A stretch of DNA of 48,060 nt, taken from Acidimicrobiales bacterium (GTDB lineage Bacteria > Actinomycetota > Acidimicrobiia > Acidimicrobiales > SHLQ01). The position numbers and the translations under genes are program-made. Shown here one piece after another: positions 16,964-24,733 of the stretch. The notes below the pieces were generated by a model that ran no database searches, had not been told where the DNA came from, and worked only from the letters and a program-made list of their open reading frames with translations. Each line of letters begins with the position of its first letter. The stretch's first letter is position 1. The stretch is from assembly GCA_020629635.1 (NCBI GenBank), contig JAHDCX010000022.1, positions 1 through 48,060 on the forward strand, in the 5' to 3' direction.

Positions 16964-17868
16964 TCTCCGGGCGCCGACTCCAGGCGTTCCCCCTGCGCGT
17001 CACCGTCGTCGGCGCAGTCGCCGTCGCGGTGTCGCTGGCCCTTGCGTCGTGCTCGAATTCGCCGGGCGTCGCAGACGACTCGGCCCCGTCATCCTCGCTG
17101 GTCCGTTACGGCGATGACCCGAGCGAGTTCGGATCGTGGCAGGTCCCGGCAGGAGACGACGTCTCCCATGTCGTCGTTCTCGTCCACGGCGGCTTCTTTC
17201 GAGTCCGAAACGGTGACCTCAACCTGATGTCCGACGTCGAGCGTGATCTCGTCGATCTCGGCTTCGCGGTGTGGAACATCGAGTACGGCCGCGTCGGCGA
17301 GGGCGCCGGAGGCTGGCCTCACACCTACGAACATGTCGGTGGAGCGCTCGATCATGTGGAGCGTTTGGTCGACCCGTACACGTCGGGCGATTCCGATGTT
17401 CACGTTGCGATTATTGGCCATTCGGCCGGTGGTCACTTGGGGGCGTGGGCATCTGGGAGAGGTTCGTTGACCGCTTCCGATGTTGGAGGCTCGGCCGCCG
17501 TGGTCCCTGAGCTTGCGATCGGCCTCGGTGCCATCCACGACATCGCCGCCGCGGCCGCCGATGGGGTCGGTGAGGGCGCGGTTGTCGATCTTCTCGGCGG
17601 GATGCCGTCCGAGCGACCCGACCGGTATCGGGTGGCATCCGTCGCCGGTCCGTGCGTTGTCGCAATCCATGGATCCGAGGACGAGACGGTGCCAATCGAG
17701 CTGGCGTCGCAGCTCCCCGCCGGACCGGTGCACCAGCTCGTCGAGATCGACGGCGTCGGGCACTTCGACGGACTCGACCCCGATTCGGCGACATGGCGCG
17801 CGGTCCGCGATCTGCTCGACCAGTGGCGCTCGGGGACGGCGTGCCTGAACGAGGTGCCCTCAAAATAG
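16960..17868 (+). CDS. lipoprotein alpha/beta hydrolase, probable CTG start
   Basis: The 302-residue alpha/beta hydrolase has an oxyanion-hole motif VVLVHGGFFR, a nucleophile elbow IIGHSAGGHLG (Ser155) and later HGSEDETVP and GVGHFDG. These supply the Asp and His, as in formamidase/esterase-type enzymes. The first ATG/GTG/TTG in frame (GTG 17029) leaves only seven residues before the Cys of LALASC, too few for a signal peptide. The frame stays open upstream and encodes a textbook lipoprotein signal (SGRRLQAFPLRVTVVGAVAV, then AVSLALASC; Cys31). CTG 16960 overlaps the upstream TGA as CTGA and is preceded by AAGGAGG at 16943-16949. I therefore propose CTG as the start. The substrate is unknown; the enzyme would act outside the membrane. 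Confidence 0.75.
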   Translation: MISGRRLQAFPLRVTVVGAVAVAVSLALASCSNSPGVADDSAPSSSLVRYGDDPSEFGSWQVPAGDDVSHVVVLVHGGFFRVRNGDLNLMSDVERDLVDLGFAVWNIEYGRVGEGAGGWPHTYEHVGGALDHVERLVDPYTSGDSDVHVAIIGHSAGGHLGAWASGRGSLTASDVGGSAAVVPELAIGLGAIHDIAAAAADGVGEGAVVDLLGGMPSERPDRYRVASVAGPCVVAIHGSEDETVPIELASQLPAGPVHQLVEIDGVGHFDGLDPDSATWRAVRDLLDQWRSGTACLNEVPSK

Positions 17869-17900
17869 TTACCGGATTACGGAATTACCTGATTACATGA
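17869..17900. repeat. four tandem 8-bp repeats (TTAC octamers), candidate operator
   Basis: Four octamers follow each other with no gap: TTACCGGA, TTACGGAA, TTACCTGA, TTACATGA. The TTAC cores fall at 17869, 17877, 17885 and 17893, an exact 8-bp period. The array starts one base after the hydrolase stop and ends 56 bases before the chosen start of a gene for a ribbon-helix-helix-like protein. Ribbon-helix-helix regulators such as plasmid omega repressors bind tandem 7-bp direct repeats, so an autoregulatory operator is plausible. Confidence 0.6.
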
Positions 17901-17956
17901 ACGTTGTGTACGGCATCATCAACCCGCACACAACCCCATGGAGAGGTGCAACCCAC

Positions 17957-18523
17957 ATGTTTGCTGCACGCGCAGGACACGGTCGGAAACGTCGCCACCA
18001 GAGCGAGGCTCCGCCCATCACCACCGAAGACACTCGTGCCTGGTTCGCCGGGCAGGTTCCCGACGAGTGGTTCATCGAGCCGGTCGACGTTCACCACGAT
18101 CGAGACGAAATCGTCGTCACCGGGACGCTGGCCGCGCCAGCGATCCAAGACGGCGACGACGCCGACGTGGCCGCACACGCTCGTGCGAGCGCCTTCCGCG
18201 AGGAAAGCCGAGAGGCCCGAATCCGGATCGCCGAACGAGCCGAAGCGTCCTTCCGTCGCAAGGTTTCGTGGGTCGTCCGAATCGGCGACCACACGATCGA
18301 GTACACGACGGCAAATGTTCCGGTCATGACCCGCTTGACCATGCCAGATCGACAGGTCCTCGACACGTTGATCGCCGCCGGCATTGCCCGATCGCGCAGC
18401 GAAGCACTCGCCTGGTGCGTCCGTCTCGTTGGCGAGAACGAATCGGAGTGGATCGAACGGCTCCGCACCGCAATGGAAGACCTCGAGTCGGTTCGAGACG
18501 CTGGTCCCGCAAGTCGTTCGTGA
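17957..18523 (+). CDS. protein with C-terminal ribbon-helix-helix-like region
   Basis: The 188-residue product has an N-terminal segment of unknown fold (TRAWFAGQVPDEWFIEPVDV) and a charged middle helix (ASAFREESREARIRIAERAE). The C-terminal region (RLTMPDRQVLDTLIAAGIAR, then SRSEALAWCVRLVG) resembles the strand-helix-helix of ribbon-helix-helix DNA-binding proteins. ATG 17957 is preceded by GGAGAGGTG at a good distance. ATG 17897, inside the fourth TTAC octamer, is in frame but has no ribosome site. The octamer array upstream suggests that the protein controls its own gene. I recall this as a conserved family in actinobacteria without known function. Confidence 0.7.
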   Translation: MFAARAGHGRKRRHQSEAPPITTEDTRAWFAGQVPDEWFIEPVDVHHDRDEIVVTGTLAAPAIQDGDDADVAAHARASAFREESREARIRIAERAEASFRRKVSWVVRIGDHTIEYTTANVPVMTRLTMPDRQVLDTLIAAGIARSRSEALAWCVRLVGENESEWIERLRTAMEDLESVRDAGPASRS

Positions 18524-18559
18524 CCCTTCAGTCGGGCATCGACATGCCGATTGACCACG

Positions 18560-20692
18560 ATGAGCGTCGGTCTGCCAGACGACCGTGAACCAGAAGCGGC
18601 GACGGGCTCCGACCCCGTCGCCGCCTTTTGGGCACGGCTGAGTCCCGGGCATCGCCGAACGCTGATCGATCAGATCGATCTCCTTCCGACCAGTGCGTTC
18701 ATCAAGGACCGCAACTCGGTGTTCATCCACGTGAACAAGGAATTTGTCGACCGGCTCGGCGTCGGACGATCCCCCGTCGGTGGGACCGACGAAGACGTCG
18801 TCGACGACGAGCTCGCCGCCGTGTACCTGGCCGCAGACCTCGAGGTCATGGAGCGGGAGAAGCCACTGGTCGACTTCGTCGACATCCAACAACGAAGCGA
18901 CGGAACGACGACTGCGTTCACGACATCGAAACTCCCCATCCGCGACGACAACGGCGACGTGATCGGCCTGTTGGCGATGACCACCGAAGTGCCCGACCCC
19001 GAGCGCATCGCCGATGAGCTTCGCACGAGCGAGCAGCGGTACGCCCTCGCCGCCCGGGCGTCCCGGGATGGCATCTGGGACTTCGATCTCGCCAAGCGTT
19101 CGCTCACGTTGTCCCCCAGATGCAGCCAACTCTTCGGGCTGCCAGCCATCGCCGGGTCATATCCGTGGGACGTCCTTCGACGACGAATGGGCGACGACGA
19201 GGCGGCCAAGGTGCTCGATGCCCTGAAGCCGCTGCACGATGGGACGGCCGACTCGGTCGAGCACGTCATCCACTTCCGGCGCGTCGACGGGACATCGAGC
19301 TGGCTCGGACTTGTGGCCACCGGCCTGCGGGTCGAGGGGTCGGTCATCCGGCTGGTCGGCTCACTCGCCGACGTCACCGAAGAACGTCAACGGGCGGCCC
19401 ATCTCGAACGCCAGGCCAGTCAGGACGATCTCACCGGCCTCGCCAATCGCCGACGCCTGATGGAACACCTCGAGGCGTGTGCGGCCGACGACACCCTGTG
19501 CTCACTCCTTGCGCTCGATCTCGACCACTTCAAGGTCATCAACGACTCGCTCGGCCATCAGGCAGGCGATCGGATGCTGCTCACGGTTGCCGCACGGCTC
19601 GAACGACTCATCGATGACTCGGAGATGTTGGCGCGACTCGGCGGTGACGAGTTCGCCATCCTGGTGCAGGGTGGCGATCACGCCCGTGCGGAGTGGCTCG
19701 CCGAGGCCGCCGTCGCCGCGCTCGATCGCCCGGTCCGCATCGATGGCCTCGACGTGTACTCGACCGCGTCGGTCGGTGTCGCCCATCGCCGCGGTACCGA
19801 GAGTGCGACAGAGCTGCTTCGAAGCGCCGACATTGCGCTCTACGACGCCAAGGCCGAGGGCAAGGCGTGCGTTCGGGTCTACACCCCGCAGATGGGCGAG
19901 CATGCCGACCACGAACTGGAGCTGCAGATTCGTCTTCGGCGTGCGGTTGCCAACCACGAGTTCCGTCTGCACTACCAACCGATTCATCACAGCAATGGCC
20001 ACGGTGTTGCTGGCGTCGAGGCGCTGCTGCGGTGGTACCCGGAGGGCGGCGATCCCGAACCGCCGGCGACGTTCCTCGCCTATCTCGAACGCACCGGGCT
20101 CATCATCGATGTTGGTCATTGGGTGATCGACGAGGCCTGCCGGCAGCTCGGCGAATGGGTTGCGCAGCATCCGGAGATGCGCGGGACGCACCTGGCGCTC
20201 AACATCTCGCGGGTCCAATTTCGTCGACGCGAGTTGGTGCAAGATCTGCTCATGGCGATCCAACGCAATGGTCTCGATCCCAGCCAGATCATCGTCGAGA
20301 TCACCGAGACCGCGGTCTCCGAGGACGCATCGTTGCTGCTCGATGCGCTCGACGAACTGCGGGCCGCCGGAGTCCGAATCGCCGTCGACGACTTCGGCGT
20401 CGGCCAATCATCGTTGTCGGTGCTCTATGACCTGCCCGTCGATCTGGTGAAGATCGACAAGAGCTTCACCGAGCGGCTCGGCGGTGACGGCGACCTCCTC
20501 GTCGACGCAATCCTGCGGATTGCCGAGACCCTCGAGCTCGAGTGCATTGCCGAGGGGGTCGAGACCGTCGAGCAGGACGCCTGGCTGCGTGCCAACGGCT
20601 GCCGGTACGTGCAGGGTTGGTTGCTGGCCAAGGCGATGCCGCCCGAGCAGGTTCCGTCGCTCTTCCAGGTCGCTCGGCCGCAGGCAGCCTGA
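18560..20692 (+). CDS. PAS-PAS-GGDEF-EAL cyclic-di-GMP signalling protein
   Basis: The 710-residue soluble protein begins with two PAS-type sensor domains (about 30-150, TSAFIKDRNSVFIHVNKEFV; about 155-275, YALAARASRDGIWDFDL). The diguanylate cyclase domain has an intact GGDEF at 361-365 (RLGGDEFAIL). The phosphodiesterase domain has EAL at 487-489 (GVEALLRW), ITETAVSEDASLLL, DDFG at 610-613 and VKIDKSF, so both enzyme halves keep their key residues. There is no RxxD inhibitory site before GGDEF. Whether it makes or breaks cyclic-di-GMP cannot be told. ATG 18560 was preferred to TTG 18551. The stop overlaps the thioesterase ATG by one base. Confidence 0.92.
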   Translation: MSVGLPDDREPEAATGSDPVAAFWARLSPGHRRTLIDQIDLLPTSAFIKDRNSVFIHVNKEFVDRLGVGRSPVGGTDEDVVDDELAAVYLAADLEVMEREKPLVDFVDIQQRSDGTTTAFTTSKLPIRDDNGDVIGLLAMTTEVPDPERIADELRTSEQRYALAARASRDGIWDFDLAKRSLTLSPRCSQLFGLPAIAGSYPWDVLRRRMGDDEAAKVLDALKPLHDGTADSVEHVIHFRRVDGTSSWLGLVATGLRVEGSVIRLVGSLADVTEERQRAAHLERQASQDDLTGLANRRRLMEHLEACAADDTLCSLLALDLDHFKVINDSLGHQAGDRMLLTVAARLERLIDDSEMLARLGGDEFAILVQGGDHARAEWLAEAAVAALDRPVRIDGLDVYSTASVGVAHRRGTESATELLRSADIALYDAKAEGKACVRVYTPQMGEHADHELELQIRLRRAVANHEFRLHYQPIHHSNGHGVAGVEALLRWYPEGGDPEPPATFLAYLERTGLIIDVGHWVIDEACRQLGEWVAQHPEMRGTHLALNISRVQFRRRELVQDLLMAIQRNGLDPSQIIVEITETAVSEDASLLLDALDELRAAGVRIAVDDFGVGQSSLSVLYDLPVDLVKIDKSFTERLGGDGDLLVDAILRIAETLELECIAEGVETVEQDAWLRANGCRYVQGWLLAKAMPPEQVPSLFQVARPQAA

Positions 20693-21515: not shown

Positions 21516-22726
21516 CCGGTGTTGATCGGTTGTCGCGGGGGTTGAGTGAAGGATGAACTCGCCCGTGGCGTGATGACGGCCGCAACGCCGAACAGCACTG
21601 CCGAGATCGTCATGGCGGTGGGTACGGACACGAGGTCGGCGACGATCCCGAGGGCGATTCCGCCGAGGATCTCGCCGAAGGCTTCGGCCTGACCGATGAA
21701 GGAGTGCACGGTGGCTCGTGCGCGGTCGGACGCAAACACGTTGGTCCAACTGATGACGAGCGGCTCCATCGCGGAGAACGCGCCGCCCTGGACGATCAGG
21801 CCGAGTGCGGCGACGAGCAGCACGTCGACGTTGGCGAGTACGGCGATGCCGACTGCCGTGGCGACCTGGAGGCTCATGAGCAGACCGACCACCGCGGGAC
21901 CGGTCGCCTTCCGACGCGTCACGAGCAGCATCGCTGCCGCGAGCAACGAATTTATCGACGTGACGATACCGACGAGCACGACGACGTCGAGACGGTCGGG
22001 TACGCCCACATCGACGAGTCGTTGCACGTCGAGCCGATCGATGGCCTCCTTGGCGACACCGCCGATGAAGATCACGGTTGCGAGCACCCGCATCGCACGC
22101 GTCGCCCGCACCTGGGCCCAGCCGTCCACGAGCATGTCTCGAATGCCGTCGAACCCGGATCGGCGCGATGGCTCGAAGGCGGTCTCGGGCATCCGAGCGA
22201 ACAGGAAGACCCCCCACGCGGCGAAGATCGCGGCGATTGCCAGGAGGGCCACCGTGGTCGACGTGATCGCTGCGAGGCCGGCGAACGAGGCGATCCCGAC
22301 CACGCCCGACACCAGCTGGAGGCGCCCGCGCCGCAGGATCAGATCTTCGGCCTGCTGGGCGCCGCCGAGCTCGGCGGTGATCCACGCGGTTTCGGCGCCC
22401 GTCTCGAACGTCTTCCCGAAGCCGATGAGGATCTGGCTGACAACGAGCAGCCAGTACGCCTCGGCGGTCGCGGCGAGGGCCATGGCGATCGCCATCGTCG
22501 CGAAGGAGTAGATGACCGAGAGTCGTCGGCTCTTCAGGTCGGCGACGGCCCCCGTCGGGACCTCGAAGACGAGGATGCTCAGCTCCATGACCGTACCGAG
22601 GAGGACGAGTTGGAGTGGGGAGAGCTCCACTTCGGTCACGAGTCTGACGAAGAAGATCGGCCAGAACCCTCGCATACAGGCTCGTCTGAGCAGCCCGGTG
22701 GCGAGATAGATCGTCGAAGCCCGCAT
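21512..22726 (-). CDS. major facilitator superfamily transporter
   Basis: This 404-residue protein has about 12 hydrophobic segments. The N-terminal half includes VLLGTVMELSILVFEVPTGA, then VADLKSRRLSVIYS, the MFS motif-A-like loop between helices 2 and 3, and IGFGKTFETGAETAWI. It resembles the MFS branch whose members are annotated as putative drug or macrolide exporters. The ATG at 22726 lies about 78 bases from the divergent sulfatase gene. The transported compound cannot be inferred. Confidence 0.85.
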   Translation of the reverse strand: MRASTIYLATGLLRRACMRGFWPIFFVRLVTEVELSPLQLVLLGTVMELSILVFEVPTGAVADLKSRRLSVIYSFATMAIAMALAATAEAYWLLVVSQILIGFGKTFETGAETAWITAELGGAQQAEDLILRRGRLQLVSGVVGIASFAGLAAITSTTVALLAIAAIFAAWGVFLFARMPETAFEPSRRSGFDGIRDMLVDGWAQVRATRAMRVLATVIFIGGVAKEAIDRLDVQRLVDVGVPDRLDVVVLVGIVTSINSLLAAAMLLVTRRKATGPAVVGLLMSLQVATAVGIAVLANVDVLLVAALGLIVQGGAFSAMEPLVISWTNVFASDRARATVHSFIGQAEAFGEILGGIALGIVADLVSVPTAMTISAVLFGVAAVITPRASSSFTQPPRQPINTG

Positions 22727-22804
22727 CGGGTTCCACTCTCGCAGCGAATCGCCGAGATGCGACTGCTACGTTGGAGGCGTCGTGCGGGCCTGTCTGGAGG
22801 TGCC

Positions 22805-24733
22805 GTGAGGCTCCGGTTGATCGCCACATGCGCACTGCTCGTCCCGATGTTGGCGAGCGCCTCTCCGGTTGCCGTTGGCGCCCAGGGGCGACCCGGACTC
22901 GAGCTCTGCCGGCAGCAAGGTCTCGCGGTGTCCGCGTCGTTCATGGGGACGAGTGGAGACGACATCATCATCGGGACTCCCGGGGACGACGTCATCCGAG
23001 GTGGTGGCGGGAACGACGTGCTGTGCGGTCGGGGTGGCAACGACGTGATCCTCGGCGGGTCCGGCGACGATCAGATCGACGGCGGCGCCGGCGACGACCG
23101 ACTGCTCGGAGGGACCGGCGACGATCGCATCGAGGGAAGCGCCGGCCGCGACCGCATCGGCGGCATGGCCGGCGACGACGAACTCCATGGCGGCAACGGA
23201 CCCGATCGACTGATCGGCGGAGCCGATGACGACGCGCTCCACGGCGGCGCCGGACGCGACCGGCTCGACGGCGGTACCGGCCGGGATCGACTCTTCGGTC
23301 TCGGCGGGCCGGACGTCCTGCGCGGCGGCAACGGACCCGATCGACTCGACGGCGGAAGCGGAAGCGATGTGCTCGACGGCGGCGCTGGTGCCGATCGGCT
23401 GACCGCCGACGCCAGCGATTCGTGCGGCGCTGATCCGGCTGATGTGCGGCGTGGATGTCCGGCGCGACACGACGCACCGAACATCGTCATCATCAACCTC
23501 GACGATGCCCGTCCCGAGGTGATGGACGTGCTTCCACTGACGTCGTGGTGGTTTGGGACGGGCGGCACCACGTGGACCAACGCCTTTGTGTCCACACCGT
23601 CGTGTTGTCCGTCACGGGCGACGCTGATGACCGGTCAATACGTGCACAACAACGGGCAGGTCGATCAGACCACTCCGCTCACCAACGAGTGGAACACTGT
23701 GCAGCGCCACCTCGATCAGGCGGGATGGTTCACAGCGCACAGCGGCAAGTACCTGCATTATTACGACGTCGGCGAGCGAGCTCCGCACTGGGATCGTTGG
23801 ACGTACTTCCGAGGCGGCTACACCGACGTGCGTGTCGACATCGACGGGGTCGTGCAACAGGCGGCGGTGCATTCCACGGTGCTGACGTTCGACTCGGCGA
23901 TTCGCTACATCGACGCGTTCGAGGCAGCGGACGACTCGACGCCGTTCTACGTACACGTGGCCCCGGTCGCCCCGCACACCCCCTTCGACCCCGAGCCGCA
24001 GTTCGCGGACGCACCCGTGCCGGACTGGACCCCGCCGCCGTCGGTCGGTGAGGTGGACCGGAGCGACAAGCCACCCGAGATGCGATTTGTCAATCGGTCC
24101 CCCGCGGAAGGGGAGCGGGTGCGGGTCGGTCAGCTTCGCCAGGTGATGTCGGTGGACGCGCAGGTGGATCGACTCTTCAGGACCTTGGATGCCCACGGCG
24201 AGCTCGACAACACCTTGGCGATCTTCACCTCGGACAACGGCTACCTCTGGGGGGAGCACGGCCGGACGAAGAAGTTCGTGCCGTACACCGAGGCGGTCCA
24301 CGTTCCGCTGCTGATCCGTTGGCCGGGACGTGTCGCCGCCGGTGCGTCATCGGACGATCTCGTCAGTCATGTCGACCTTGCGCCGACGATGCTCGCGGCC
24401 GCCGGTGTCGACGCCGAGCACGTGATGGACGGACGGAACCTCCTGGCGCCGGACTTCGTTCGAACGAATGTGCTGACCGAGTACTGGGAGGATCCGGCGA
24501 ACGCGAACTTCATTCCCGACTGGGCGTCGATTCGCAACGAACGACGCGTCTACACCGAGTACTACGGGCCGGGCGGCGGTGTCGTGTTCCGGGAGTTCTA
24601 CGACCTCGCCGCGGATCCTTGGGAGCTGAACAACCTGCTCGCCGACGGCGACCCTCGCAACGATCCGGATCTCACGTGGGTCGAGAACCGTCTCGACGAG
24701 TACCGGAGGTGTCGCGGCAACGCCTGCGGCTGA
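22805..24733 (+). CDS. secreted sulfatase with N-terminal RTX calcium-binding repeats
   Basis: The 642-residue product has a signal peptide (LIATCALLVPMLASASPVAV). About 150 residues of RTX nonapeptides follow (GTSGDDIIIG, GGNGPDRLDG and many GGxGxDxxx units, residues about 47-200). A type I sulfatase domain starts near 226 (NIVIINLDDARPE). Its signature CCPSRATLMTG places the formylglycine Cys at residue 267. Further metal and active-site segments include HSGKYLHYYD and FTSDNGYLWGEHGRTKKF. GTG 22805 follows GGAGG; ATG 22757 is an alternative. RTX repeats normally fold on calcium outside the cell, so this enzyme probably acts on sulfated polysaccharides at or beyond the cell surface. The gene needs a formylglycine-generating enzyme encoded elsewhere. 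Confidence 0.88.
   Translation: MRLRLIATCALLVPMLASASPVAVGAQGRPGLELCRQQGLAVSASFMGTSGDDIIIGTPGDDVIRGGGGNDVLCGRGGNDVILGGSGDDQIDGGAGDDRLLGGTGDDRIEGSAGRDRIGGMAGDDELHGGNGPDRLIGGADDDALHGGAGRDRLDGGTGRDRLFGLGGPDVLRGGNGPDRLDGGSGSDVLDGGAGADRLTADASDSCGADPADVRRGCPARHDAPNIVIINLDDARPEVMDVLPLTSWWFGTGGTTWTNAFVSTPSCCPSRATLMTGQYVHNNGQVDQTTPLTNEWNTVQRHLDQAGWFTAHSGKYLHYYDVGERAPHWDRWTYFRGGYTDVRVDIDGVVQQAAVHSTVLTFDSAIRYIDAFEAADDSTPFYVHVAPVAPHTPFDPEPQFADAPVPDWTPPPSVGEVDRSDKPPEMRFVNRSPAEGERVRVGQLRQVMSVDAQVDRLFRTLDAHGELDNTLAIFTSDNGYLWGEHGRTKKFVPYTEAVHVPLLIRWPGRVAAGASSDDLVSHVDLAPTMLAAAGVDAEHVMDGRNLLAPDFVRTNVLTEYWEDPANANFIPDWASIRNERRVYTEYYGPGGGVVFREFYDLAADPWELNNLLADGDPRNDPDLTWVENRLDEYRRCRGNACG

Follow-up and report, generated by a model that had tools for sequence, protein, structure and literature searches.

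The octamer array and its surroundings

Which protein, if any, reads four phased copies of a tetranucleotide that fill the start of a short intergenic region? The question is raised by a locus in a stretch of 48,060 nucleotides of an Acidimicrobiales genome (hereafter the window), where TTAC occurs at 17869, 17877, 17885 and 17893, with an exact 8-bp spacing. The array (17869-17900) reads TTACCGGA-TTACGGAA-TTACCTGA-TTACATGA, its units, to which no strand was assigned, covering 17869-17876, 17877-17884, 17885-17892 and 17893-17900. The upstream gene (17029-17868, plus strand), which encodes a BD-FAE-like alpha/beta hydrolase (Pfam PF20434, E 4.9e-12), ends with the TAG at 17866-17868 and the array therefore begins at the next base. 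The end of the array is separated by 56 bases (17901-17956) from the ATG at 17957 of a gene for a 188-residue protein, within a gap of 88 bp between the two genes. The positions that the earlier note had given for the four octamers, the preceding stop and the following ATG were thus exact. A GGAGAGG element resembling a ribosome-binding site lies at around 17940-17946, some 10 nt before that ATG. The fourth unit contains an in-frame ATG at 17897, and therefore an alternative start exists that overlaps the array, much like the arrangement in mycobacteria, and would yield a protein of 208 residues. On basis of the sequence and the list of open reading frames, the segment 17897-17956 (plus strand) is either a leader or a 20-residue N-terminal extension; the start codon is ambiguous, with 17957 preferred in view of GGAGAGG.

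The three-unit pattern TTACN4TTACN4TTAC was recovered in the window at the array only (0 in 100 shuffles), and the same was true for the complete genome of 4.45 Mb, in which the array is the sole one with three or more phased units. The two-unit pattern TTACN4TTAC had four genomic sites, three of which lie inside the array, as compared to 12 for the reversed pattern. Given the TTAC frequency in the window, four phased copies are expected around 3e-7 times per genome. A simple repeat or a chance origin was ruled out by these shuffles, counts, controls and expectation. A consensus promoter was not found in the window, and the array itself matches no sigma-70 promoter.

The downstream gene encodes an AbmR orthologue

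The product of the downstream gene (17957-18523, plus strand) matched NCBIfam NF058631 ('ATP-binding transcription factor AbmR') with 216.8 bits (E 1.3e-64, cut-off 160) over positions 2 to 166 of the 167 in the model. Judged by this match along the whole model, it is an AbmR orthologue. A search against Pfam gave no match for the product. The earlier note had imagined a chromosomal regulator with a family of its own; such a family, with its own octamer array, indeed emerged, yet it is not a new one but AbmR.

AbmR is Rv1265 of M. tuberculosis, a protein reported to bind both ATP and DNA and to exert control over the divergent sRNA Mcr11 (PMC8628891). The mapped 5' end of Rv1265 coincides with the -35 element of this sRNA (MTS0997/Mcr11; PMC3207917). 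In the window, Rfam gave no relevant match between 15.0 and 21.0 kb in a search that included no Mcr11 model, and a separate Mcr11-like sRNA gene was considered unlikely, in view of this result and of the gap of 88 bp, which is too small. To our knowledge, an Mcr11-type gene beside abmR is known from mycobacteria only. AbmR is further said, in work of Girardin and colleagues from 2018, to lower the activity of its own promoter, to require C-terminal arginines for binding to DNA and to form large assemblies. Directly downstream of abmR in the window lies a gene for a PAS-GGDEF-EAL protein of c-di-GMP turnover (18551-20692).

The AlphaFold2 monomer model of the 188-residue protein had a mean pLDDT of 89. 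According to the predicted secondary structure, residues around 23-117 (18023-18307, plus strand) form an N-terminal alpha-beta-beta-alpha-alpha-beta-beta domain, which is a possible ligand (ATP) domain. A comparison with VIA-align connected it to small alpha/beta folds (uS3, RbfA, KhpB, CzrB, ApbC and ring-building motifs) at Z scores up to 7.3; the modelled resemblance to KH-type-II/RbfA and similar small alpha/beta folds, with all Z scores below 8, is too weak to name the fold. The C-terminal domain (18311-18514, plus strand) comprises a predicted strand VPVMTRLTM, a helix DRQVLDTLIAAG (residues 129-140) and a long helix that starts at 147 with RSRSEALAWCVRLV and is followed by an extension, thus presenting the order of a ribbon-helix-helix (RHH). 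Invariant residues in this part are T117, P122, R126, L127, L135, D136, S146, R147 and A150. The VPVMTRLTM strand is not formed in the monomer model; the ribbon of RHH proteins forms in the dimer only.

Similarity searches pointed to the same fold, although all matches were weak. With the C-terminal domain alone, the best six Foldseek matches were all ParD-type RHH antitoxins (E 0.5-2.5), and structural comparison with this type gave Z scores up to 5.1. The Pfam ParD model reached E 0.0026 in the best AbmR member, which is below the cut-off, and none of the Pfam RHH models reached its cut-off with the AbmR C-terminus. Against an alignment of 30 RHH_1 proteins, in which two rows in a wrong frame (L215 and L228) were kept, hhalign aligned the domain in register with E 0.0012 and a probability of 19%, and above 30 out of 30 column shuffles. 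Searches by sequence in the PDB recovered no homologue of full-length AbmR and a weak ParD1 match for the C-terminus only, and full-length Foldseek searches gave no significant match, with a viral RHH protein ranking second in the viral library (E 0.02). Because of the strand-helix-helix order, the ParD-type best matches and the in-register profile alignment, the C-terminus of AbmR is likely RHH-like. The earlier note had read it so from the sequence, and the pattern, the helix order and the nature of the best matches point the same way, the profile and structure scores themselves being low. Unlike the ParD-type antitoxins, AbmR has no toxin partner in sight and is a much larger protein.

Conservation of the array at abmR loci

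For a first set of 60 homologues, drawn from the order and the phylum, an array was defined as at least two tetramers (GTAA or TTAC) with an exact spacing of 8 bp within 300 nt upstream. Such an array was present in 55 of them, as compared to a mean of 0.09 in dinucleotide shuffles and to none in 475 other segments of the same loci, while each of the other periods between 4 and 15 was found in 0 or 1 loci. In a held-out set of 44 loci that had been unexamined when the rule was fixed, 38 carried the array. It was likewise present in all six named records from plasmid and phage collections, which include Thermomicrobium roseum (Thermomicrobiota), Nonomuraea, Streptomyces, Nocardia, Tsukamurella as well as a faecal contig with a phage label, and in 79 of 80 named mycobacteria, a collection of fetched loci to which M. 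tuberculosis itself does not belong. Of 110 diverse abmR loci taken together, 103 had GTAA/TTAC tetramers just upstream that kept strictly to an 8-bp lattice, with 8 as the only period. The array upstream of relatives, for which the earlier note had proposed to look, is therefore present in nearly all of them, and homologues devoid of any array, the outcome named there as speaking against the idea, made up just seven of the 110 diverse loci.

In the array-less loci that were read, the strand residues MTRLR were unchanged, and therefore loss of the array does not track the DNA-reading surface, a point against an operator read by AbmR; altered DNA-reading residues were rejected as an account of these loci. 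Two array-less loci (L276 and L277, upstream of abmR in G441 and G350) have in its place a common conserved GACGCAGATAAATRTAC stretch, which may reflect the replacement of a promoter or operator. A divergent second AbmR copy (L287; G041:C16:297329-297823) has an altered strand, VAARLDLDQ, yet a convergent GTAA-N6-TTAC pair is located upstream (L248); the other copy in that genome (L024) has the canonical strand and no array. The faecal contig mentioned above (L197; MT835531.1, human, 40 kb, filed as a bacteriophage) contains the abmR homologue with a GTAA octamer pair at 2240-2977. The contig could be an actinobacterial fragment under a wrong label, or the abmR copy could be carried by a phage.

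Most arrays consist of two to four units, and their distance to the ATG ranges from 0 to more than 100 nt. The mycobacterial consensus GTAAcggtGTAATcATGtAatcATG extends into the start codon, and there the region also serves the divergent sRNA gene mcr11; in the window, unlike in mycobacteria, the array lies 56 bp before the preferred start and directly after the stop of another gene. That the array reaches the ATG in mycobacteria and many other organisms, at the place where a leaderless -10 would sit, could suggest that the array serves abmR as a core promoter or as part of its start region (an extended -10 or leaderless start) and is no site for a regulator. Promoters, however, show no 8-bp repetition and do not function in both orientations, the distance to the ATG varies too widely for such an element, the array in the window fits no sigma-70 promoter, and a promoter motif would not be restricted to one gene per genome. 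We therefore consider a promoter element very improbable.

A single lattice with units in both orientations

When the 110 loci were pooled, 119 same-orientation pairs of tetramers were 8 bp apart and 25 were 16 bp apart, while no other distance below 16 had more than two. Convergent pairs (GTAA-N6-TTAC) were 10 bp apart in 20 cases and 18 bp in 13. Divergent pairs (TTAC-N2-GTAA) were 6 bp apart in five, a distance with few examples and competing distances. If the unit is written as N-GTAA-NNN, then the direct distance of 8, the convergent distance of 10 and the divergent distance of 6 bp all correspond to 8 bp between centres. The pairs thus share a single 8-bp lattice with a symmetric unit, which is what a row of adjoining symmetric dimers would produce. 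A dimer of this kind, able to occupy the unit in either direction at a constant pitch of 8 bp to its neighbour, would explain the mixed orders. Neighbouring tetramers also occur off the lattice, with divergent distances of 7, 8, 15, 16, 23 and 24 bp, and these speak against reading the array as an operator.

The direct order was the commonest among the arrays and some were convergent or divergent. The description as a direct-repeat array in the earlier note holds for the 8-bp phasing, which relatives have kept, but in the family both orientations occur. The unit sequence TTACNNGA that it had proposed to search for has to be replaced: the family consensus is GTAATCAT (= ATGATTAC), to which unit 4 (TTACATGA) is the nearest of the units in the window.

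Strong sites are essentially confined to abmR

A three-unit array was found in 21 of the 198 genomes of the order. Twelve of the 46 genomes with AbmR carried one, and in all 12 every copy was located at abmR. The nine genomes without AbmR contained 11 scattered three-unit sites, which is no more than background (19 for the reversed pattern). The co-occurrence of three-unit array and AbmR within the order had a hypergeometric P of 4e-4. In 14 genomes of the mycobacteria and a second actinobacterial family, 8 of 10 three-unit sites and every consensus two-unit site were at abmR. Considering this concentration of three-unit and consensus-pair sites, a strong operator occurs essentially nowhere but at the gene of the regulator itself. 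A wider regulon was rejected, as both scans gave essentially abmR alone.

The distribution also bears on whether a different regulator, one that controls abmR, binds the array. Co-location by itself is no proof of self-binding and the array is missing from a few abmR loci, yet genomes without AbmR show no three-unit arrays above background and the arrays are essentially at abmR alone. Moreover, the motif and the AbmR strand are both constant over two phyla, and a foreign single-target regulator that is so widely conserved would be the less simple assumption. A different binder thus appears improbable.

A putative autoregulatory operator

Since nearly all abmR relatives, over two phyla, possess 8-bp-phased repeats at this position and almost nowhere else in the genome, the array is very probably a conserved autoregulatory operator of the downstream abmR, putatively bound by AbmR in a cooperative manner. 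The earlier note had proposed an octamer operator of the downstream regulator, and the comparative data support that proposal. We infer that AbmR itself is the binder, with one dimer per octamer, cooperativity and repression. Each 8-bp unit (N-GTAA-NNN, with TTAC on the plus strand in the window) would take one twofold-symmetric dimer of the RHH-like C-terminal domain; adjacent dimers would touch and bind cooperatively, so that several weak sites act as one strong operator. Coating of the operator would then block transcription of abmR by occlusion, thus providing negative feedback, and a ligand, probably ATP, may tune the binding via the N-terminal domain.

Short phased arrays that tolerate both orientations and lie at the gene of the protein itself are a trait of type Ib partition systems such as omega and ParG, and the abmR loci display it. 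Omega (ParB of pSM19035) binds WATCACW heptads with one RHH dimer per repeat, in direct or inverted order, with a low affinity for one repeat and a high affinity for two or more, and has its arrays at its own promoter (PMC9499535). The likeness of AbmR is deduced from the DNA pattern; omega differs in its 7-bp pitch (8 bp for AbmR), its motif, its role in plasmid partition with a ParA partner and in lacking a folded N-terminal domain like that of AbmR. ParG of TP228 recognizes tetramer boxes with short spacers (parH and the operator), which are coated by RHH dimers with autorepression as a result (PMC7308502). The AbmR array resembles these boxes, again going by the DNA pattern, whereas ParG has a different tetramer, a flexible tail where AbmR has its folded N-terminal domain, and a function in partition.

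Type Ib partition is characterized by tandem phased repeats to which an RHH protein binds (PMC9499535), and thus the array could be considered a centromere-like or partition site of the omega/ParG/ParB type. Most arrays, however, have only two to four units, and a cognate ParA/ParF gene was not found among the genes flanking abmR (the BD-FAE hydrolase and the PAS-GGDEF-EAL gene). Lacking a ParA partner at the locus, the centromere reading was rejected and its probability is close to negligible. The putative AbmR operator may then work like the operators of omega and ParG do, with no segregation system attached.

A search of the literature for the octamer motif gave nothing relevant, and in the literature covered, to which the primary AbmR papers did not belong, the DNA site of AbmR is not stated. 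The AbmR family was already named; what is added here comprises the operator code, its conservation over two phyla, the rule of the lattice and the reading of the C-terminus as RHH-like, subject to what the primary AbmR papers may hold. AbmR of the window and Rv1265 are orthologous over the whole model, and the same octamer operator lies at the gene in 79 of the 80 named mycobacteria (M. tuberculosis not among them). With a GTAA/TTAC code on an 8-bp lattice that extends from Thermomicrobium to Acidimicrobiia, Streptomyces and mycobacteria, recognition by AbmR, cooperativity and control by ATP can be tested using short oligonucleotides. The distribution suggests that the strong direct DNA target of AbmR is essentially its own promoter, together with the divergent mcr11 in mycobacteria. 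More speculatively, and in our estimate rather unlikely, AbmR could be the first example of a family of autoregulators, spread over two phyla, that have a single target, with the own promoter as the sole strong genomic site. The operator would then meter the protein and the main job would lie elsewhere, perhaps in an action of the KH/RbfA-like N-terminal domain on RNA or ATP (e.g. by stabilizing Mcr11 in mycobacteria).

Two further observations concern other elements. In the window, a long ORF region at 22700-24733 shows, by its translation only, repeats rich in glycine and aspartate (GGxGxD-like) and, after them, a sulfatase-like domain. In many mycobacteria a palindrome of the type GTTCGCCGNNGGTGAAC is located around 30 bp upstream of the array (L119, 2300-2500; L063-L142) as a second conserved site, which may serve mcr11 or another regulator.
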